Positions 22,062 through 38,691 of a stretch of 64,000 nt of DNA are shown here, in pieces. The notes under the pieces are model-generated. The model worked only from the letters and a program-made list of their open reading frames with translations, was not told the origin of the DNA and did not search any database. Numbering within the stretch: the stretch's first letter is position 1; each line of letters opens with the position of its first letter. Source of the DNA: Caryophanales bacterium (lineage in GTDB: Bacteria; Bacillota; Bacilli; JARBTR01). Made by a program: the position numbers and the translations under genes. The stretch is from the NCBI GenBank assembly GCA_029240105.1, contig JARBTR010000005.1, positions 124,001 to 188,000 of the forward strand. Direction: 5' to 3'.

Positions 22062-22694
22062 TTAAACCATCCGTTCCTTCAACCTTAGTTGTCGTTGTTT
22101 TTCAATACAATATTGTATAATTTTCTTTTGATCTAGATTGTCTATCTCAATAAATTTTATAGCAATCTGATATCGTTCAAGATCTTTTAAGAAATTAATT
22201 CGTGTAATCTTACATTGGAAAGAAATAGTCGCTTTTTTTTCACTTGAGAAACCAGGAAGAAAAATGCTACCCGAAACTGTTTCACCCTCAATTAACCCAA
22301 AATCTGAAATGCTAGAACATAATAGTCCACCAGCACTTAGATTGATAGTACTTACTTCTTTATCATTCAATAAAAGTGGTATGTTCACATTTACCCTGAA
22401 GTCTTCTCGTAATTGAACTTTCATAATTTCTTTTTCTTCTGGTTTTTTCAGAATAAGAAGAGGGATATTTTCAATTTTTTTACCTATTATCTCTGTTAAA
22501 AATTTGTATCTACTTACGTCTGAAGTGTATGTTACCTCAATTGCAGTTCCAACTTGTAACATACCGAAATTAGATAGGTCCATTGGAAGACCAATTAGAA
22601 TTTCCCCTTCATTAACGTCGGAAACGATTGATTTCCATGACTTGTCCTCATTATTTACATTTATGATTATATTCTGATTTATTTTTGGAAACAT
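22062..22694 (-). CDS. PilZ-domain c-di-GMP receptor (YcgR/MotI/DgrA-like)
   Basis: 210-aa protein with an N-terminal YcgR_2-type beta domain (1-90) and a C-terminal PilZ domain. The c-di-GMP-binding motifs are intact: RxxxR as REDFR (96-100) and NxSxxG as NLSAGG (118-123). In B. subtilis such a protein (MotI/DgrA) acts as a clutch on MotA when c-di-GMP rises. The ATG at 22694 follows GGGGTGGG. A TATAAT (22734-22739) lies 40 bases upstream with a poor -35. It has its own terminator, so it is likely monocistronic. It and the nearby riboswitch form two c-di-GMP inputs. Confidence 0.9.
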   Translation of the reverse strand: MFPKINQNIIINVNNEDKSWKSIVSDVNEGEILIGLPMDLSNFGMLQVGTAIEVTYTSDVSRYKFLTEIIGKKIENIPLLILKKPEEKEIMKVQLREDFRVNVNIPLLLNDKEVSTINLSAGGLLCSSISDFGLIEGETVSGSIFLPGFSSEKKATISFQCKITRINFLKDLERYQIAIKFIEIDNLDQKKIIQYCIEKQRQLRLKERMV

Positions 22695-28769: not shown

Positions 28770-30698
28770 TTAACTCTGCATACTTTTCAACCATTTACAG
28801 TCTGGGAAGTGATGCAACGCAAGATTTACTATTAAAGACTTTTTCTCAACCTCAAATTCTTTTTTATTCATTATTTCAACCGCATATTTAAAGAATCTAA
28901 AATCGTATTGTTCCTTTTCTAGCGCTAATAAAATGTATTCTATAGCATCTTCTAAATACTCACATTGCATGAAACCAACAATGATATTTAAATACGCTTC
29001 GGAGTCAAGTTGATTTACATCACATTCATTATATAAGTCTATTGCTAAATCAGTAAATTCATATTGATAAAGTAGGTTCCCTATTCCTAAATTAATAGAA
29101 GTGTCAAAGTTGTTCTTTTTTAAAAGTAGTTTCTCAAACAGTTCATATCTTTGTAAATGAATACATCGCTCCAATAAAGCAATATAGAGTTTTTCATTTG
29201 GTTTAGAAGAAATGGAGTCTTTAGCTAAGAGCTCAAAAAATATCTTAGCTTCCTTATCGGGTACTAGATTATATAAAGTAACCAAAAAGTCTTTATTTGC
29301 TTCTAAAGCATAGATTGTTAAATCATACAAATCTATAAACCCAGTTTTCAACACCCCATCAAGATTTGTAATAGTTTCTACTTTTATAAAATCAGATAAT
29401 AGACTATAGTTTCCTATTAATTGACCAATTTTTATTTCTATAGATTTTTTTACAGTGGTTTCATCTTTAAGTTTTTCTAAATACTTTTGAGCTAAAAAAG
29501 CTTGATTTAATTTGGTTGAAACCCAAATCATATTAATAATATCTTGATGATCCTTTATCCACATTTTATCTTCAATGAATTGATAGATCTCCTCAACCGA
29601 TACGGATTTCAACATTATTTCTATGACTTTGTAAAGAATTTCTCTGGATTTGGTATTTATATTTAAAGCTTTTACGTAATGGTAAATTGCTTTATTAAAC
29701 TCTTTCTGTTCAAAATAAATTTTCCCAAGATACTGATGAGGATGAAATTCTGAAAAATCAATACTGGTAATGGTCTTAGAATAATAATCTTTATTATTCA
29801 GCAGATCCTCAAATTCTTCAATTGCCTCATCATATCGATGTTGCAGCATATATACATTTGCTTTTAAACATTTAAAGTCTGGTGAATGTGTAAAGTTTTT
29901 CCCCTTTTTATAAATCATATCCAGCGCTTCCTTATATCGTTCTAATGCTATTAAACAATTAACCGTTAGTACAATACAAAAGGGAACCCATGTAATTTGA
30001 ATATTTGGTTGTTTCTTATGAGCGGTTACATATGATTCTAAGGCTTTATTAACTTCACCAGCTGAAAAATATTCATTGCCCAGATTAAAATAATCAAAGG
30101 CAGTTCGAGCTGCAAGACTACTCTGTTTCTCAATTAAATCTTTATTTCTTTCACCTTTATTTTTTTCTTTTACCGTATTTTTGAGGTAACCTGAATGATA
30201 AAGAATTAAATTGGAACTACCTACAAGTAAATCTCCATTTTCTTTTTTTAATTGTTCATGAATTGTCCGAAAGAAATGAATGGAGGGGTTATTTTTATAA
30301 ATTCTTATACTTTTATGCTGTACGATTCTCTCAGCGTTCTCCCCAGTAAAATTATATATATTCACTTCAAAAGCATCGATAGTTTGTTTAATTTTCTTGA
30401 GCTCTTCTATTGCATTTTTTAGATTGTCTCCATCAACATATTCATCTGCATCAAGAACTAAGATCCATTTACCTGAAGCCTTAGATTGTGCAAAGTTACG
30501 TGCATCAGAAAAACTATTAGTCCACTCGAAATTGTATACATGACTAACATAGTTCTGTGCAATTTCTTTCGTTCTATCAGTTGAACCTGTATCTACAACA
30601 ATTATTTCATCTACTATATTGTGAACAGAATCTAGACAGCGTTTAAGCACCAGCTCTTCATTTTTTACAATTAAACACAATGATAAAAACGGTTTCAT
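28770..30698 (-). CDS. Glycosyltransferase family 2 with TPR repeats, candidate flagellin glycosyltransferase
   Basis: 642-aa cytoplasmic protein. Residues 1-200 form a GT-A domain of the SunS/GT2 type (SLCLIVKNEELVLKRCLDSV, DTGSTDRT, DxD as DAD at 83-85). The rest is helical tetratricopeptide-like repeats (for example AAYL/FNLGNEYFSAGEVNKALE). Enzymes of this layout glycosylate proteins or peptides. It lies directly behind hag and before fliD, which makes flagellin its likely acceptor. The start is the ATG after AAAGGGGAAA. No promoter is visible between it and the hag terminators, so it may depend on read-through. Confidence 0.82.
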   Translation of the reverse strand: MKPFLSLCLIVKNEELVLKRCLDSVHNIVDEIIVVDTGSTDRTKEIAQNYVSHVYNFEWTNSFSDARNFAQSKASGKWILVLDADEYVDGDNLKNAIEELKKIKQTIDAFEVNIYNFTGENAERIVQHKSIRIYKNNPSIHFFRTIHEQLKKENGDLLVGSSNLILYHSGYLKNTVKEKNKGERNKDLIEKQSSLAARTAFDYFNLGNEYFSAGEVNKALESYVTAHKKQPNIQITWVPFCIVLTVNCLIALERYKEALDMIYKKGKNFTHSPDFKCLKANVYMLQHRYDEAIEEFEDLLNNKDYYSKTITSIDFSEFHPHQYLGKIYFEQKEFNKAIYHYVKALNINTKSREILYKVIEIMLKSVSVEEIYQFIEDKMWIKDHQDIINMIWVSTKLNQAFLAQKYLEKLKDETTVKKSIEIKIGQLIGNYSLLSDFIKVETITNLDGVLKTGFIDLYDLTIYALEANKDFLVTLYNLVPDKEAKIFFELLAKDSISSKPNEKLYIALLERCIHLQRYELFEKLLLKKNNFDTSINLGIGNLLYQYEFTDLAIDLYNECDVNQLDSEAYLNIIVGFMQCEYLEDAIEYILLALEKEQYDFRFFKYAVEIMNKKEFEVEKKSLIVNLALHHFPDCKWLKSMQS

Positions 30699-30813: not shown

Positions 30814-31641
30814 TTATCCACGAAGTAATTGAAGAACTTGTTGTGGTTGTTGGTTAGCTTGAGCCAACATAGCTTGAGCAGCTTGAGAAAGGATACTAGC
30901 TTTAGATTGTTGCATCATTTCTTTCGCCATGTCTACGTCACGGATACGTGATTCAGCATTACTGATGTTTTCAGAAGAAGCATCAAGGTTATTTACTGTG
31001 TGCTCTAAACGGTTTTGAGTAGCACCCATTTGAGCGCGCTCATCGTTAACCAATTTAATAGCTGCATCAATTGTTGAAATAGCTGCAGTAGATACTGAAC
31101 TGCTTGTTGATAAGTTCACAGCATTAACTCCTAATGCAGTTGCATCCATATCAGCAAATGTTACTGTTAAAGTTTGAGTAGTGTTTGCACCAATTTGGAA
31201 TGTGAATGCACCAGTTGTACCACCAGTTGCATCAAGTAAGTTTTGTGTATTGAATTGAGTAGTTGTTGCAATTCTATCGATTTCAGCGATTAAGCTTGCG
31301 TTTTCTTTTTGAATCTCAGAACGATCTGCTCCTGTATTTGTATCATTAGAAGATTGAACTGCTAATTCACGCATACGTTGTAGGATAGAAGTTGTTTCGT
31401 TTAATCCACCTTCTGCTGTTTGAATCATAGATACAGCGTCTTGTGCGTTACGGCTAGCTTGATCTAAACCGCGGATTTGTCCTCTCATTTTTTCAGAGAT
31501 TGCAAGACCTGCTGCATCATCTCCTGCACGGTTGATACGAAGACCAGAAGATAATTTCTCCATAGATTTAGCTTGTGCTGCGTTGTTAACACCTAACTGA
31601 CGAAGTGAATTTGATGCCATCAAATTGTGATTGATTCTCAT
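30814..31641 (-). CDS. hag: Flagellin (Hag)
   Basis: Filament subunit of 275 aa. The conserved D0/D1 N-terminus (MRINHNLMASNSLRQLGVNN, then KLSSGLRINRAGDDAAGLAI) and the C-terminus (MLAQANQQPQQVLQLLRG) are intact. The short central region is Thr/Ala/Ser-rich and could carry O-glycans. The very strong AGGAGG lies in the loop of a small hairpin at 31646-31663. No SigD promoter is visible in the 98 bases between csrA and hag; the two SigD promoters upstream of csrA are the only good candidates. Confidence 0.97.
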   Translation of the reverse strand: MRINHNLMASNSLRQLGVNNAAQAKSMEKLSSGLRINRAGDDAAGLAISEKMRGQIRGLDQASRNAQDAVSMIQTAEGGLNETTSILQRMRELAVQSSNDTNTGADRSEIQKENASLIAEIDRIATTTQFNTQNLLDATGGTTGAFTFQIGANTTQTLTVTFADMDATALGVNAVNLSTSSSVSTAAISTIDAAIKLVNDERAQMGATQNRLEHTVNNLDASSENISNAESRIRDVDMAKEMMQQSKASILSQAAQAMLAQANQQPQQVLQLLRG

Positions 31642-31645
31642 AATT

Positions 31646-31663
31646 AATTTTCCTCCTAAAATT
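31646..31663 (-). promoter_or_regulatory. hag leader hairpin with the Shine-Dalgarno sequence in its loop (candidate CsrA site)
   Basis: Minus strand AATTTT (31658-31663), loop AGGAGG (31652-31657), AAAATT (31646-31651). CsrA dimers bind GGA in hairpin loops and block ribosome access; in B. subtilis a CsrA site overlaps the hag Shine-Dalgarno sequence. The stem is all A-T and therefore weak. Confidence 0.6.
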
Positions 31664-31739
31664 GTTTTTAGTTAATTATTTATTAAAAAGCCTATGGCTG
31701 TTTAATCTGATTAAAAATTGTGAATTTAACAAGAATGAC

Positions 31740-32114
31740 TTAACTGGTAAACCTTAATGATTTGTGAGTTATTTGACGCTTTAAAGAATGATCAATCTGT
31801 TTTCCCTTAGGATATATTTCTTCACGAAAAACAGAAATTTCTTTTGGAGCATCAATCGCGAACCGTATTAAACCTGTCTCGGTCTGGATAACGCTAACTT
31901 TTATTGATTCACCAATTTGTATGGTTTCACCAATGATTCGAGCCTTTTTTTTAAATTTCTCCAAATTATTTGGAATTTGTTTGACTCTATTAAATTCAAT
32001 ATCCAAAGGAGCATCTATAGCAATCTCTAAGTTTGAACCTTTTTGGAGGAGGGTGATTTTAATTTCATCCACAATAATGACGGATTCCCCAACATCTCTG
32101 CCTATGATCAGCAT
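31740..32114 (-). CDS. csrA: Tandem-duplicated CsrA, single-chain translational regulator
   Basis: 124 aa from ATG 32114 (GGGGGAAG 7 bases upstream; a start at 32138 is less likely), against 61-75 aa for ordinary CsrA. Residues 1-48 are one CsrA unit (MLIIGRDVGESVIIVDEIKI and IAIDAPLDIEFNR). Residues 54-103 are a second (IIGETIQIGESIKVSVI, FAIDAPKEISVFREEIYPKG). A basic 20-residue tail follows. Unit 1 keeps strand 1 with the Arg6 equivalent but lacks the EE after the Arg44 equivalent. Unit 2 keeps REEI but its strand 1 is replaced by Lys-rich linker. CsrA normally acts as a homodimer that represses hag translation and is antagonised by FliW. It is transcribed from two SigD promoters and ends 98 bases before hag. 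Confidence 0.9.
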   Translation of the reverse strand: MLIIGRDVGESVIIVDEIKITLLQKGSNLEIAIDAPLDIEFNRVKQIPNNLEKFKKKARIIGETIQIGESIKVSVIQTETGLIRFAIDAPKEISVFREEIYPKGKQIDHSLKRQITHKSLRFTS

Positions 32115-32238
32115 TTTTGACTTCCCCCAAATCTTCATTCAGTGTTGCGATGAACCTTTACCGAGGTCTAACTTATGAAAAGTACTCTGTTGTTAAATGC
32201 CACTTCCTTACTTACAAGATAATTCTTGGTATTAGGTA

Positions 32239-32265
32239 TTATCGGATTTTGTTGAATTTTGTTTA
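32239..32265 (-). promoter_or_regulatory. Proximal SigD promoter of csrA-hag
   Basis: Minus strand TAAA (32262-32265), 15 bases, TCCGATAA (32239-32246). It lies 125 bases before the csrA ATG. Confidence 0.85.
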
Positions 32266-32379
32266 GCGTTTTTAAAAAAAAGTTTTTACCCAGAATTTCT
32301 TGTTTATTTTATTGGCAATTCAAGAATTGGTTTAGTAGTAAACTATTTTTTAGTTTTACGACCAACTTCTTACTAAATC

Positions 32380-32406
32380 TTATCGGTGGTATCAAAATAT
32401 AGTTTA
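32380..32406 (-). promoter_or_regulatory. Distal SigD promoter of csrA-hag
   Basis: Minus strand TAAA (32403-32406), 15 bases, ACCGATAA (32380-32387). It lies just after the terminator of the sugar operon, 141 bases upstream of the proximal promoter. Confidence 0.85.
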
Positions 32407-32421
32407 GTAATTTTTCAAAAA

Positions 32422-32457
32422 AAATAAAAAAGAGACGAAATTATTCGTCTCTTTTTG
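32422..32457 (-). terminator. Terminator of the CDP-sugar/glycosyltransferase operon
   Basis: A 9-bp stem AGAGACGAA / TTCGTCTCT with loop ATTA, flanked by A and T runs on both sides, so it may work in both directions. It lies 139 bases after the rfbG stop. Confidence 0.88.
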
Positions 32458-32595: not shown

Positions 32596-33666
32596 TTACA
32601 TGTAAACTAACTGCTTATTGATTATATCAAGAATTTGGTTTTCCATTACTTCTTTAACTTTGCCACTTTCAAACGCATGTACAAATTCGATGGTTTTATA
32701 AACCGCTTCATCAAGTGTGGTGGATGGTTCCCATCCAAGCTCACTTTGAATCTTTTCAATACTTAACATCAGAAGTGGGTTTTCATGGTATACATTCATA
32801 CTTGTATCCACTTCCCATGATAACCCTTTTCCCCAGTGCTTGCAGAACAAATCGACTAGTTGATAATTTGGTAAACAATCGTTAGGTAATGGACCAATAT
32901 TATAACTAGTAAATACCTTAGGCAGATTATAATGTTTTTCGATCATAAATAAATAAGCATGAACTGCGTCTAAAACAAACTGATAAGGACGTACTGCGTG
33001 TGGATTTCGTATAATAATCGGTCCACCATTCTGAGCAAACCGAATACAGTCCGGAATGATTCTGTTTTCTGAAACATCTCCTCCACCAATTACATTCCCA
33101 CTTCTAGCTGTAATGACTGTTAAATCTCTTGAATGAAAAAAAGAATTATAATAGCTACTAGTCACTAACTCTGAACAGGCTTTACTGTCAGCATAAGGAT
33201 CATGCCCACCCAATTTTTCATCTTCCAAAAAGGCGTGCGACCCACAAACTGGCTTGTAAACTTTATCCGTTGTTACATTTAAAAAAAGCTTAGTTGAAGT
33301 GTTTTTTCTGATACATTCCAGAACATTTACAGTGCCCATGACATTTACTTCATAAGTTTCTCTTGGCCGATGGTAACTTTCAATAACTAGTGGTTGAGCA
33401 GCCATATGAATAACAATTTCAGGTTCAAACTCTATAAACAATTTTTCCAAACTAGCTATATCTCGTATATCACCTATAACATGTTTTTCTAGTAAATTCA
33501 CACTATCAGAAATGTAGAAAAGCGAATCACTTCTTTCAGGAAATAGAGAATATCCTGCTATTCTAGCACCTTGCATCGAAAGCATCTTACACATCCAACT
33601 TCCCTTAAATCCTGTGTGACCTGTTACTAAAACCTTTTTATTTTTAAAAAAATCCATCAACATCAC
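32596..33666 (-). CDS. rfbG: CDP-glucose 4,6-dehydratase
   Basis: 356-aa short-chain dehydrogenase that converts CDP-glucose to CDP-4-keto-6-deoxyglucose. The Rossmann motif VTGHTGFKGSW (about 14-24), the catalytic region NVTTDKVY (about 130-137) and the YADSKACSE (YxxxK) motif at about 158-166 match the RfbG type; TGHTGFKGSWL is characteristic of CDP-glucose dehydratases. It is the last gene of the operon started by rfbF, its substrate supplier. The ATG at 33666 follows AAGGAATG. Confidence 0.9.
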   Translation of the reverse strand: MMLMDFFKNKKVLVTGHTGFKGSWMCKMLSMQGARIAGYSLFPERSDSLFYISDSVNLLEKHVIGDIRDIASLEKLFIEFEPEIVIHMAAQPLVIESYHRPRETYEVNVMGTVNVLECIRKNTSTKLFLNVTTDKVYKPVCGSHAFLEDEKLGGHDPYADSKACSELVTSSYYNSFFHSRDLTVITARSGNVIGGGDVSENRIIPDCIRFAQNGGPIIIRNPHAVRPYQFVLDAVHAYLFMIEKHYNLPKVFTSYNIGPLPNDCLPNYQLVDLFCKHWGKGLSWEVDTSMNVYHENPLLMLSIEKIQSELGWEPSTTLDEAVYKTIEFVHAFESGKVKEVMENQILDIINKQLVYM

Positions 33667-33706
33667 ATTCCTTGAATTTAGTCATCACAGTCACGCATTA
33701 TCAATT

Positions 33707-35503
33707 TTACATTTTCACAAATAGACTATTAATTTTTGAACTCGTTAGCCTTAAATCTAATTGATCCACAGGTAGCTCTGGGAATATCCTACTCCAACTT
33801 TCAACTTCCGTTTCACTTAAATTCAATGCCTTAGAAAAAATATTTCCTTGGAGTACAAATCCTGCATTAATAATAGTCTGAATAATTCCCTCTGCATTTG
33901 ATCCATTCATATAACTCAATCGATTCATTGTGTTACGAATATTCTCAATAAATCCAGGATTGTCAATTGCAATAGCTAGACTTGCTCCTTTTTTAGCGAG
34001 TTGATAGATACTCTTAAAATACTCATCAAGCCCTTGCCCATTTAAAGAAGGAATTTGTTCAATCAGAATATAATCAAAAATATCTTCCTTAAAAACGTCA
34101 ATGATCGTTTTATTTTTATCTGCTAAGTGTATGTCATCTGAAATATCTTTCAGATCTTTTAAATACTTTGCTTCCTCAGTCCAAGCATGCACATGACATT
34201 TCACCTGGGAAAGATTTTTAAAACGGTTCATTATATATTGCGGTGTACAACCACATTTCGAATTAACCGCAAGTAAATGTTTGTCTCCACTATCACTAGG
34301 GGTACCCAAAATATTTGCCAAGTTAACCTCTGGGCGAGCATCATTCCATGCATCAATACCCCATTTTTCATTAAAAATCACACGGCCTTTATTAATTGAA
34401 TCGTGGTTGACGTGTTCAGCCCCAGTTGTAACATGACCATAATGATAGACAAACGTATCATTGCAAAATATGAGTTTATATCCTGCTCTTCTTATTTTAA
34501 ATGAAATATCATCATCCGCAAATTCACCAAAATAATAGCGAGGATCATAATAACCGATGTATTCAAGAAGTTTTGTATATGAGCACAAAACATTTGGTAG
34601 TAGAACTTGTCTTTCTTCCCACTTCAAAGGATTAGAAACATTATAACTTTCCGCAAAAGCTTGCATTTCTCCCATGTCTTCAAACTGGACATTTACCTGT
34701 TGAAAGTTCGAAATGAAGTTACTTGCCGGTGAAACATATCCATAATTCGGATTACTTTCAATACAATTCATTAAATTCGATAGCCAATTTTTTGTAAAAA
34801 TAAAATCATTACATAGAACAGCTGTATATTTACCTTGCGCAGCAGCGATTCCAATATTCATTCCAACGCCTGCACCGCAATTATATGGCAAATAAAATGC
34901 CTTAGCACCTTCAATACTCTCAAAATATTCTTGCGTTTCATCCGTTGAACCGTTGTTTACTAAGATTAATTCATACTCAACATGATCAGTGTACTTCAAT
35001 ACACTTTCAACACATTGTTTTGTGTATTCGAGTTTATTGTAGGCGAGGATAACAATACTTACTTTGCAACGGTAAGAATGCTGATCTATGCTTCCCTTAT
35101 CAAATTCCTTCATTTCCGGGTAAAGAATAGGTCGCATTTGACTACTTGTATGCTTTTCAAACGTTACAAGTAGTGTTTTTATTAATACATCTATTAAAGG
35201 TAGTGTGTATTCTATGAAAATAGGAAGCTTAAATTCTGAGTTACTTTCATCTAAATTTCTTTCAACCCAATAAGAAAGGTTTCCGAAAACATCCTTACAA
35301 CGGTTCATCGAAAATAGGTATTGATTTGCCTCAATAAAATAAACAATTTCCTCTGAAAGAGATAAAAAATCTTCTAATAGGAAATCGTGTAATACACCCG
35401 TATTTGCCTGTTCTTTTAGATAATTGGCGCATTCTAAAAGAGATTCAAGTGCATCAAATTTAGGTTGAAAATCTACATGTTCCGTGTTGATCAAAAGTAC
35501 CAC
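33707..35503 (-). CDS. Glycosyltransferase family 2 with N-terminal helical and C-terminal Rossmann-like regions
   Basis: 598-aa protein. Residues ~1-140 are helical and unrecognised. About 147-390 is a GT2 catalytic domain (KVSIVILAYNKLEYTKQCVE, NNGSTDET, LCNDFIF as acceptor/metal site, FADDDISFKIRRAGYKL). About 405-598 looks like a partial methyltransferase-type Rossmann region (FDYILIEQIPSLNGQGLDEY) without a recognisable SAM motif. It lies between the acyltransferase and rfbG genes, so it probably transfers the CDP-linked sugar; flagellin is the likely acceptor by location. Confidence 0.8.
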   Translation of the reverse strand: MVLLINTEHVDFQPKFDALESLLECANYLKEQANTGVLHDFLLEDFLSLSEEIVYFIEANQYLFSMNRCKDVFGNLSYWVERNLDESNSEFKLPIFIEYTLPLIDVLIKTLLVTFEKHTSSQMRPILYPEMKEFDKGSIDQHSYRCKVSIVILAYNKLEYTKQCVESVLKYTDHVEYELILVNNGSTDETQEYFESIEGAKAFYLPYNCGAGVGMNIGIAAAQGKYTAVLCNDFIFTKNWLSNLMNCIESNPNYGYVSPASNFISNFQQVNVQFEDMGEMQAFAESYNVSNPLKWEERQVLLPNVLCSYTKLLEYIGYYDPRYYFGEFADDDISFKIRRAGYKLIFCNDTFVYHYGHVTTGAEHVNHDSINKGRVIFNEKWGIDAWNDARPEVNLANILGTPSDSGDKHLLAVNSKCGCTPQYIMNRFKNLSQVKCHVHAWTEEAKYLKDLKDISDDIHLADKNKTIIDVFKEDIFDYILIEQIPSLNGQGLDEYFKSIYQLAKKGASLAIAIDNPGFIENIRNTMNRLSYMNGSNAEGIIQTIINAGFVLQGNIFSKALNLSETEVESWSRIFPELPVDQLDLRLTSSKINSLFVKM

Positions 35504-35535
35504 TCCAATTTTGCTATATCTTTATTTTTATCTAT

Positions 35536-36234
35536 TTACCAATTTACCTTAGGCAAATCGGTGCTGATTGGCACATTAAAATACTGCTGTGTATATGGTG
35601 GTTTTTCATGTAATTTCATACAAAGTTTTCCTTCATCGTTTGTAAATACAACATGGTTATCCAAGATGTTTTTTTGGTAGACAAAGCTTCTCGCACCAAC
35701 TGAAACACCATCTCCAACAGTACAATCCCCTATTATACTAGCACCTGATAGAATTCCGAATCCTTTGCCGATTTTAGGATAAACATATTTTTGCGCACCA
35801 ACAGTAGTATTGTGAGCCGCGACAAAAAAGTTATCGATTTGAGCTTTTCCAATCACTGTTCCAACGCAATGAAGAAACATAAACACATCTGGTAACTCGG
35901 TATTATACATGCAACACAACGAATTCAATGTTTTATTTAGTGAAAATAATTTATTGCAGAGTGGTTCATTTTTAGAAACACGCCACAATGAATTAGAAAG
36001 TAACCAAATAAATTGTGCGTATTGATCTGAATGCAGATGATTAAAATTAGGCACACCATCCTTGTGGTATCCATTATAAGAAATAAATGAAAAACAGTAT
36101 TCAAGACGGCTTAACGCCATATCAAACGCAAGATCCACATCTGAACCTTCTAACACAAACTTATCCGGAAAGAAGTGGTTAAGCTGTGTAGATACAAAAC
36201 TGTGCAACTCATTTTTTGATAGCGAAATCTGCAT
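35536..36234 (-). CDS. Left-handed beta-helix (hexapeptide) acyltransferase
   Basis: 232-aa protein with an N-terminal helical part and a C-terminal hexapeptide-repeat helix (about 130-200: VGTVIGKAQIDNFFVAAHN, IGKGFGILSGASIIGDCTVG). It resembles serine O-acetyltransferase-type enzymes, but its operon contains sugar genes, so O- or N-acylation of a sugar is more likely. The acceptor is unknown. Confidence 0.75.
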   Translation of the reverse strand: MQISLSKNELHSFVSTQLNHFFPDKFVLEGSDVDLAFDMALSRLEYCFSFISYNGYHKDGVPNFNHLHSDQYAQFIWLLSNSLWRVSKNEPLCNKLFSLNKTLNSLCCMYNTELPDVFMFLHCVGTVIGKAQIDNFFVAAHNTTVGAQKYVYPKIGKGFGILSGASIIGDCTVGDGVSVGARSFVYQKNILDNHVVFTNDEGKLCMKLHEKPPYTQQYFNVPISTDLPKVNW

Positions 36235-36256
36235 AAATGTCTACCCCTATATTTCA

Positions 36257-37312
36257 TTAATCAACTTTTGATTGGTTTTCATAATAGTGAACTGTATCAA
36301 CAACTGCGTCTCGGAAGATCGTTTGAGGCTTCCATCCTAATGAAGCTAATTTTTCAATCCCATAATACTTCTGACAATCCAAATTTTGTTTTTGAGGGAG
36401 TGAATCAATTCCTTTTAAGTTTCTGTCAGAAAAAATTTCAACAAGTTGGTGTGCAAATGCACCGATTGTCATTGAATTCGAGGGGTCAGCAACGTTGTAA
36501 GCTTCTGCCGGTTTCCCGTGTAACAAAACATGCAAGCATCCTAAAACAGCATCCATGATATATAAAAATGATCGCACTGCTTTACCATCTCCATTTAATT
36601 TTGGAGCATCACCTTTGAGAATATCGGAAACAAAATCAGCTTGCGCCATTTTTGTATCTAAATTCATACCTGGTCCAAAAACATGAGACAACCTTGCAAT
36701 TTTAGCTGGGACGCTCTTTTGACGTGCATATGCAACACACAATGCCTCCCCAGCTCTCTTTGCTTCTATATAGCACGCTCCTACTTCAGTTGGGGAAATT
36801 CCCTCAAAAGCAGACTCATTAGAGCCGGCATTAGCAGCCGTTCCTGGTTTTCCATATACGCCTGTACTACTTATATATAAAAAGGAATGACATCCTTTTG
36901 CAGCGAATTCCAATAGATTTCTAGTCCCAATTATGTTGGCATCTAAAGTCTCAATAGGATTTAATTGATGAAAAACAGGACTCGAAGGACTTGCTGCATG
37001 AATAATGTAATCTACATTTTGTAAATTTTCCAATGAACTTGTAACTTCAAAATCAAGAAACGTATGGTTTGGGTCGTTTAAAAAAGTAGTATATAGATGC
37101 TGAATACGAGTACAATCTCTAGCGGCAGAGATTACTTTTATTGAGCTTTCATTTTTAAGGTCGTTCATTTCATTATAAGCCAATAAAAATTTACTTAATG
37201 TAGACCCTAGATGACCTCCTGCCCCAGTAATGAGAACACTTCTCCCATGTAATTCTGGATGCAACCCCCAACTCTTAACCGTTTCTCTTATCTGCTTTTC
37301 AAAACTTCTCAA
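36257..37312 (-). CDS. NAD-dependent sugar epimerase/dehydratase family protein
   Basis: 351-aa extended short-chain dehydrogenase. The nucleotide motif VLITGAGGHLGS (GxxGxxG) is at about 26-37, SSTGVYG at about 147-153 and the catalytic YIEAKRAG (YxxxK) at about 181-188. With CDP-4-keto-6-deoxyglucose made by RfbG and a 3,5-epimerase next door, it could be the 4-ketoreductase or a C-4 epimerase that finishes the sugar. The exact reaction cannot be read from sequence. It overlaps the epimerase gene by 4 bases. Confidence 0.8.
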   Translation of the reverse strand: MRSFEKQIRETVKSWGLHPELHGRSVLITGAGGHLGSTLSKFLLAYNEMNDLKNESSIKVISAARDCTRIQHLYTTFLNDPNHTFLDFEVTSSLENLQNVDYIIHAASPSSPVFHQLNPIETLDANIIGTRNLLEFAAKGCHSFLYISSTGVYGKPGTAANAGSNESAFEGISPTEVGACYIEAKRAGEALCVAYARQKSVPAKIARLSHVFGPGMNLDTKMAQADFVSDILKGDAPKLNGDGKAVRSFLYIMDAVLGCLHVLLHGKPAEAYNVADPSNSMTIGAFAHQLVEIFSDRNLKGIDSLPQKQNLDCQKYYGIEKLASLGWKPQTIFRDAVVDTVHYYENQSKVD

Positions 37313-37848
37313 TTCTTACACTCTCCAATATATTGCCAGCTTCTATCTTTTTCTGAGATTATTTTTATCTTATTAGGCCATACAATTCCGATGGATGGAT
37401 CATCAAATCGCAAGCCTCCCTCAGAACCTGGAGTATACACTTCCGTAACTAAATAATGAATCTCAGCATGATCTGTTAAAGTTAGATAGCCATGCGCAAA
37501 GCCTTTTGGTACGTAAAGCATTCGGTAATTGTCTGCACTTAATTCGTACCCGACCCATTGAAGATAAGTTGGAGATTCTTTTCTTAAATCAACAATCACA
37601 TCATAAATGGATCCACGTGTACAGCGAATAAGTTTATCCTCAGCGTGAGGCTGTTTCTGAAAATGTAGACCCCGCAAAATACCCTTGTAATGATTATGTG
37701 CAATATTTGACTGAACAAAATCCGAACATAAACCGTACTCTGCAAATTCAGAATAATCTGTTAGTCTTGAAAAAAAACCTCGATCATCCTTCTTAAATTC
37801 TGGTGTAATTAAGTAAGCTCCCTCTAAGGCTAACTTTTCAAATATCAT
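37309..37848 (-). CDS. RmlC/RfbC-like 4-keto-6-deoxyhexose 3,5-epimerase
   Basis: 179-aa cupin enzyme. The conserved block (GILRGLHFQKQPHAEDKLIR, about 56-75), with its catalytic His, and YVPKGFAHGYLTL (about 111-123) are intact. The usual substrate is dTDP-4-keto-6-deoxyglucose. Because no dTDP pathway genes are present and CDP-glucose genes flank it, a CDP-linked substrate is more likely here. Confidence 0.88.
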   Translation of the reverse strand: MIFEKLALEGAYLITPEFKKDDRGFFSRLTDYSEFAEYGLCSDFVQSNIAHNHYKGILRGLHFQKQPHAEDKLIRCTRGSIYDVIVDLRKESPTYLQWVGYELSADNYRMLYVPKGFAHGYLTLTDHAEIHYLVTEVYTPGSEGGLRFDDPSIGIVWPNKIKIISEKDRSWQYIGECKN

Positions 37849-37911
37849 TTTTACTCTCCTTAGATGTTTGTCTAAACGTCATGCGTAATCCAAAATTAAC
37901 TTCTTAAAGTT

Positions 37912-38691
37912 TTACTTCCAAACTTTCCATGGTGCTTTTCCTTTTTTCCAAATTTCATTCAACTGCATTTGATCACGCTGTGTATCCATACTTGCAAAGA
38001 AATCATTATGCATGTACGCACGTACCTCGCCCTGTCTAGTTAAACGTTCCATAGGACCAGTTTCCCAGACAGTCAGGTCATCTTCTATTTCTTCAATAAC
38101 ACTTGGTTCACAAACGAAGAATCCAGCACTAATTAATCCATCTCCGCCAATTTTCTTCTCCATGAAACCAGTAACTTCACCATTATTTCCAACCGAGATA
38201 CTTCCGTACCTACCAGCCGGATTTACTGCGCTTACTGTAACTTTTTTACCATGACTTTTGTGGAATTCTACTAATTTATCAATTGGAATATTTGACACAC
38301 CATCCCCATAGGTAAGCAAAAATGGTTCATTATTCAAATATTTAGAGATTCGTTTTATACGACCACCCGTCATCGTGTTTAACCCAGTGTCTGCCAGAGT
38401 AACATTCCAAGATTCTGCGCTTGTATTTAAAATGTTTCTTGAAACCGAAGTGCCACTAAAATTGTATTGAACATCCGAATGGTTTAAATAATAATGGTCG
38501 AAATACTCTTTTATAATTACCCCTTTATAACCTAAACAGATAACAAAATCATTAAAGCCATATGAAGAATAAATTTTCATAATATGCCACAAAATTGGGT
38601 TATCTCCAATCTCAACCATAGGCTTAGGTTTCAAATGACTTTCCTCACTTATTCTTGTACCAAATCCACCAGCTAGAATGACAACTTTCAT
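37912..38691 (-). CDS. rfbF: Glucose-1-phosphate cytidylyltransferase
   Basis: 259-aa nucleotidyltransferase making CDP-glucose from glucose-1-phosphate and CTP. The N-terminal signature VVILAGGFGTRISEESHLKP (about 3-22) with KPKPMVEIGDNPILWHIMK, and LTYGDGVSNIP (about 124-134), define the RfbF type. It is the first gene of the operon. The upstream 130 bases are AT-rich without a SigD box, so expression may be SigA-dependent. Confidence 0.93.
   Translation of the reverse strand: MKVVILAGGFGTRISEESHLKPKPMVEIGDNPILWHIMKIYSSYGFNDFVICLGYKGVIIKEYFDHYYLNHSDVQYNFSGTSVSRNILNTSAESWNVTLADTGLNTMTGGRIKRISKYLNNEPFLLTYGDGVSNIPIDKLVEFHKSHGKKVTVSAVNPAGRYGSISVGNNGEVTGFMEKKIGGDGLISAGFFVCEPSVIEEIEDDLTVWETGPMERLTRQGEVRAYMHNDFFASMDTQRDQMQLNEIWKKGKAPWKVWK

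Follow-up and report, generated by a model that had tools for sequence, protein, structure and literature searches.

A tandem CsrA with one predicted complete RNA site, encoded directly ahead of flagellin in relatives of Bacillus

The prevailing view is that CsrA requires a pair of RNA sites, with which one dimer can link a high-affinity hairpin to the ribosome-binding site of its target. In the CsrA-FliW-Hag system of Bacillus subtilis, CsrA is a homodimer with two RNA sites that faces two sites in the hag leader; FliW is its antagonist, and CsrA carries a C-terminal FliW-binding helix (PMC6529632, PMC7652899, PMC7829508). In the solved homodimer, strand 1 of one monomer and strand 5 of the other run in parallel and together form each RNA surface, in which L4 and R44 are critical (PMC7652899). 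The nearest precedent for a CsrA dimer with a single working RNA site is provided by laboratory heterodimers with R44A in one subunit, which, as Mercante et al. (2009) are cited in PMC7652899, showed bridging and dual-site repression.

Here, we analyzed a flagellin-linked csrA gene, csrA2, in a 64,000-nt stretch of DNA from a Caryophanales bacterium (referred to below as the window). It shares with the B. subtilis system the CsrA domains, the linkage to flagellin, and a GGA at the flagellin Shine-Dalgarno sequence, and differs from it in encoding one chain with one predicted site and in having neither FliW nor an upstream GGA hairpin. The R44A dimers, as described in that citing paper, were laboratory-made and consisted of two chains, whereas csrA2 encodes a natural single chain, predicted to have one site, and the second site has disappeared from the leader of its target as well. 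An earlier note on this DNA knew of no described flagellar CsrA of this form, and no account of a natural tandem or fused CsrA was found in open-access papers.

The fused gene, its product, and its spread

The csrA2 gene occupies positions 31740..32114, as the earlier note had correctly given, and lies on the minus strand, as do all features of the window located below; the plus strand of 31740-32114 contains many stops. The longest open reading frame at this place (31740-32138) would code for 132 aa. Since the ATG at 32114 (MLIIGR..., 124 aa) is preceded by the Shine-Dalgarno-like sequence GGGGGAAG, and the tandem CsrAs of relatives begin at the same residue, the 124-aa protein is the likely product. 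That two CsrA domains are fused in one chain, as the note had claimed, was borne out by two separate PF02599 (CsrA) matches within this single reading frame, each above the cut-off of 27 bits: unit 1 (residues 1-46; 31977..32114) with 30.6 bits and unit 2 (residues 54-103; 31806..31955), which also matches solved CsrA chains, with 50.7 bits. They are connected by the linker IPNNLEK (31956..31976), which varies among homologs. The whole protein matched the CsrA profile with E=1.9e-20, and the curated NCBI models NF002469 (87.7; cut-off, 73) and TIGR00202 (75.5; cut-off, 70.1) name it CsrA. Because it scores above these cut-offs for ordinary CsrA, annotation conceals the tandem form.

AlphaFold models computed with 9 and 13 sequences reached a mean pLDDT of 70 and 77.5, respectively, and both repeated the CsrA strand order twice. 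Foldseek searches of the PDB with either model retrieved no CsrA; since a single CsrA chain is half of the swapped fold, and dimers of this swapped type are poorly suited as Foldseek queries, we read this outcome as uninformative.

When the csrA2 product was used to scan 84,980 species genomes, eight relatives of full length were obtained, which bear the names Neobacillus (vireti, jeddahensis, paridis, mesonae, and muris) or Bacillus sp. By whole-genome searches, a fused csrA was found in 21 of 62 genomes of the N. vireti genus and in 28 of 194 genomes of its family. These 28 homologs, 48-64% identical and all intact open reading frames, make up, together with the window, the set of 29 tandem proteins compared below, all of which carry two domains per chain instead of the one domain of a canonical chain (about 60-75 aa). 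A 400-genome sample of the window's class contained no further full-length match to the csrA2 product. Phages and plasmids had no place with at least 80% query coverage, and viral contigs gave no match with the same protein, so that an origin of csrA2 from a phage or plasmid was rejected on these searches. Three Neobacillus genomes (loci L122, L123, and L124) have reading frames of about 141 aa with weak PF02599 matches (about 22 bits) and no match to the tandem profile.

As adjacent short csrA genes do exist elsewhere (see below), a frameshift or an assembly error might have fused two neighbors, and the earlier note had named such a sequencing error as a reason to abandon its reading. Intact fused genes in 28 of 194 family genomes, which bring the total to 29 intact reading frames from independent genomes with a conserved joint, refute this explanation, and we regard its probability as negligible. 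The tandem CsrA is a real, clade-wide CsrA variant among Bacillus relatives.

In a maximum-likelihood tree of the individual units (52 columns), all unit 1s grouped together (support, 100/98), as did all unit 2s (99/97), and the window paired with the same relative (G418/L110) in both groups. Since unit 1s and unit 2s each form one supported group, the tree is consistent with one old fusion; its deeper order, including the source of the fusion, was without resolution at 52 columns. Elsewhere, genome G301 (L138, 4728-5201) carries a pair of neighboring short csrA paralogs, both lacking the FliW tail, before a second flagellin gene, where the pair adjoins a normal fliW-csrA-flagellin set, and genome G319 (L137) has one short paralog of the same type. 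Like csrA2, these short genes (csrA-S) are adjacent to flagellin, and in one genome they occur as two neighboring copies; their raw identity to the tandem units of locus L024 is about 35-45%. Unlike csrA2, each of them codes for a single-domain protein of its own, and they lie next to a canonical fliW-csrA pair. The adjacent pair is plausible as a precursor-like arrangement, and the csrA-S paralogs are a possible source of the fusion.

Residue pattern of the two units

The 29 tandem proteins were aligned with 33 single CsrAs and compared in E. coli numbering. Strand 1 of unit 1 (MLIIGR; 32097..32114) had M1, L2, I3, V/I4, and R6 in 29/29 proteins, and strand 5 of unit 2 (ISVFREEI; 31815..31838) likewise retained R44, E45, E46, and I/L47 in all 29. 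The two remaining strands were altered. In strand 5 of unit 1 (IEFNRVKQ; 31977..32000), the R44 position was Arg in 10/29 and Lys in 8/29, E46 had changed to Lys in 28/29, and I47 was lost. Strand 1 of unit 2 (FKKKAR; 31938..31955) was lysine-rich, with K/R replacing L2 in 27/29 and I3 in 28/29 proteins and with L4 lost, while its R6 position was Arg in 20/29 and Lys in 7/29. The losses were clearest for the hydrophobic residues L2-I3-L4 in strand 1 of unit 2 and for E45-E46-I47 in unit 1. In a MAFFT alignment of single CsrAs to the tandem proteins, the MLVL of the single proteins was placed on unit 1 and the remainder of their sequence on unit 2.

Since each RNA site combines strand 1 of one unit with strand 5 of the other, the two retained strands would together form one site (site A), and the two altered strands the other (site B). 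Mapped by sequence onto the published swapped dimer, one composite RNA site comes out complete and the second one altered; judged by residues, the tandem proteins do not possess two equivalent sites, each combining L4/R6 of strand 1 with R44 of strand 5. The linker joins the two altered strands and would cross the altered site.

The earlier note had described the strand elements accurately (MLIIGR and RVKQI in unit 1, FKKKAR and REEI in unit 2), but both of the arginines that it counted as lost are present in the window: the R of RVKQI in unit 1 occupies the R44 position, though this residue is not conserved among the relatives, and the R of FKKKAR in unit 2 occupies the R6 position. Because the window in part keeps both arginines, the case for asymmetry rests on the 29-protein comparison, and since the corresponding positions of site B are often R or K, residual RNA binding there is possible. 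The note's picture of a single-chain CsrA with one good and one degenerate site held with respect to the complementary retention, which was found in 29/29 proteins; "degenerate" is too simple a term, since site B has conserved lysines of its own.

These lysines, K46 of unit 1 and the basic residues at positions 2 and 3 of unit 2, raise the alternative that the altered site has been repurposed as a basic patch for the RNA backbone or for an antagonist that replaces FliW. The absence of FliW from the tandem genomes (see below) would fit, since another release mechanism would be needed if control has been retained. However, the lysines may serve only the solubility of the crossing linker, and a partner gene was not found: the search beside csrA2 for a dedicated antagonist gene yielded nothing new. 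A conserved 191-aa neighbor was rejected as a candidate, as it resembles the usual yviE gene in position and size, and so was the gene after flgL, which encodes a PilZ/YcgR protein. We consider such repurposing rather unlikely, though the strongest of the alternatives.

Flagellin leaders, promoters, and the absence of FliW

The flagellin gene (hag; 30814..31641; Pfam Flagellin_N and Flagellin_C) is separated from csrA2 by an intergenic leader (31642..31739). At single-CsrA loci, a GGA-loop hairpin was located upstream of the flagellin Shine-Dalgarno sequence in 21/21 leaders, and 18/21 of them, versus 0/28 tandem leaders, had the motif in its strict form, ANANGGANGT with C, G, or T as its second letter, counts which, like those for FliW below, ignore shared ancestry. 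Only 1 of 28 tandem leaders had a GGA-loop hairpin, and a weak one. In contrast, the GGA of the Shine-Dalgarno sequence (AGGAGG; 31652..31657 in the window) was kept in 28/28 tandem leaders and is the only GGA conserved there. Where the upstream GGA hairpin is missing, the tandem leaders have a conserved hairpin without GGA, TAATAGACCCA-N-GGGTTTATTATA (31683..31705), with 97% standard pairs and compensatory changes; comparison with curated RNA families returned none at the gathering threshold. The flagellin leaders of two csrA-less Neobacillus loci (L126 and L127) keep the promoter and the same hairpin, which is therefore not specific to CsrA2.

The missing upstream hairpin bears on a further alternative, in which two tandem chains swap units in trans and form two intact sites that still bridge two GGA sites. 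With the retention pattern of the 29 proteins, a dimer of this kind would equally have two good sites, and canonical CsrA is bivalent (PMC7652899). Yet the upstream GGA hairpin needed for bridging is missing from the tandem flagellin leaders, and we consider swapping in trans unlikely, more so than a repurposed site.

A GGA is also found in front of csrA2 itself. Its Shine-Dalgarno sequence (GGGGGAA; 32122..32128) contains a GGA and is a possible autoregulatory site: the ribosome-binding site had a GGA in 29/29 tandem genes, and it reads AGGATG in 12/29 of them versus 1/34 single csrA genes. This pattern hints at autoregulation.

Mapping of the neighborhoods, which the earlier note had proposed, placed flagellin directly downstream of csrA2 in 28/29 tandem loci, with a gap of 82-236 nt; likewise, 28/29 have sigma-D promoters ahead of csrA2. 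In the window, sigma-D-type promoters are located at 32239..32266 (CTAAAC-N15-CCGATAA) and at 32380..32407, the motif having 2 matches compared to 0 expected by chance. Farther upstream, an intrinsic-terminator-like hairpin (32427..32456; 1 found versus 0.8 expected) would end the preceding sugar operon. Most tandem loci have two or three sigma-D-type promoters in series upstream of csrA2, and two (L150 and L152) have an additional one between csrA2 and flagellin. At one locus (L151, genome G482), the tandem csrA is followed by a reading frame of about 730 aa in place of flagellin. Sugar-nucleotide and glycosyltransferase genes flank the csrA2-flagellin pair of the window on both sides (32596-38691 and 28770-30698), which suggests flagellin glycosylation. 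The PilZ/YcgR-type gene (22062-22694) lies directly after flgL, the usual position of yviE-fliW-csrA in single-CsrA relatives.

FliW was found in none of the 62 genomes of the Neobacillus genus, and in 0/28 tandem genomes versus 106/166 non-tandem genomes of the family (Fisher p 1.5e-11, relatedness ignored). The loss of the upstream site and the loss of FliW may each have been one event in one clade, so that these associations are not independent. The window's own genome (85% complete) likewise had no FliW, and the tandem csrA was its only CsrA. All CsrA-bearing Neobacillus genomes (21/21) had the tandem form and none had a free-standing CsrA above the cut-off, nor did the 28 tandem genomes contain any other credible CsrA. 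The lack of FliW and the status of the tandem form as sole CsrA are two points that the earlier note had missed. In Campylobacter CsrA, V51 and N55 are among the FliW-contacting residues (PMC7829508). The FliW-contact residue I51 was present in 31/33 single CsrAs; neither this position nor N55 was conserved in either of the tandem units, and a conserved I-x3-N tail was not found in the tandem proteins.

Neither CsrA nor FliW was found in 24 of 45 Neobacillus genomes with flagellin-domain matches. The tandem protein might accordingly be a decaying relic of CsrA/FliW control with little function, given that more than half of these genomes do without any CsrA and that two such loci (L126 and L127) keep promoter and hairpin without csrA2. 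However, the site A residues are invariant in 29 diverged proteins in which those of site B vary, which indicates selection, and csrA2 has dedicated sigma-D promoters. We therefore consider a relic improbable, the more so when compared with swapping in trans.

Proposed mechanism and implications

Taken as a whole, we think it probable that csrA2 encodes a natural single-chain, one-site CsrA pseudo-dimer that represses flagellin without FliW. The lack of FliW and of any other credible CsrA, the placement of the gene between sigma-D promoters and flagellin, and the disappearance of the upstream GGA hairpin are all in keeping with a regulator that has one site. One old fusion would have joined two CsrA units head to tail, leaving site A, to which unit 1 contributes the free N-terminus, as an intact predicted GGA-binding site and site B, made from the two strands that the linker connects, altered and lysine-rich. 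Produced together with flagellin from the sigma-D promoters, the csrA2 product would repress the translation of flagellin by masking its one GGA-containing Shine-Dalgarno sequence, and neither FliW nor a bridge to a second hairpin site would be involved. Since the csrA2 ribosome-binding site carries a GGA as well, negative autoregulation may set the level of the protein. We infer its three-dimensional arrangement, RNA binding, repression, and autoregulation from these comparisons, among which one-site function and flagellin repression are well-motivated predictions. A wider version, in which a FliW-independent module combines the single-site CsrA with an altered site that has turned into a basic surface binding RNA or a partner replacing FliW, is more tentative and somewhat doubtful. 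We know of no antagonist for the tandem CsrA.

Judged by sequence, CsrA and its likely target would both have been reduced from two sites to one, with FliW being lost as well. The tandem CsrA would thus be a natural case in which to test whether bridging is indispensable and how a CsrA switch operates without FliW or a sponge RNA. It may also illustrate the evolution of a swapped homodimer into an asymmetric single chain.
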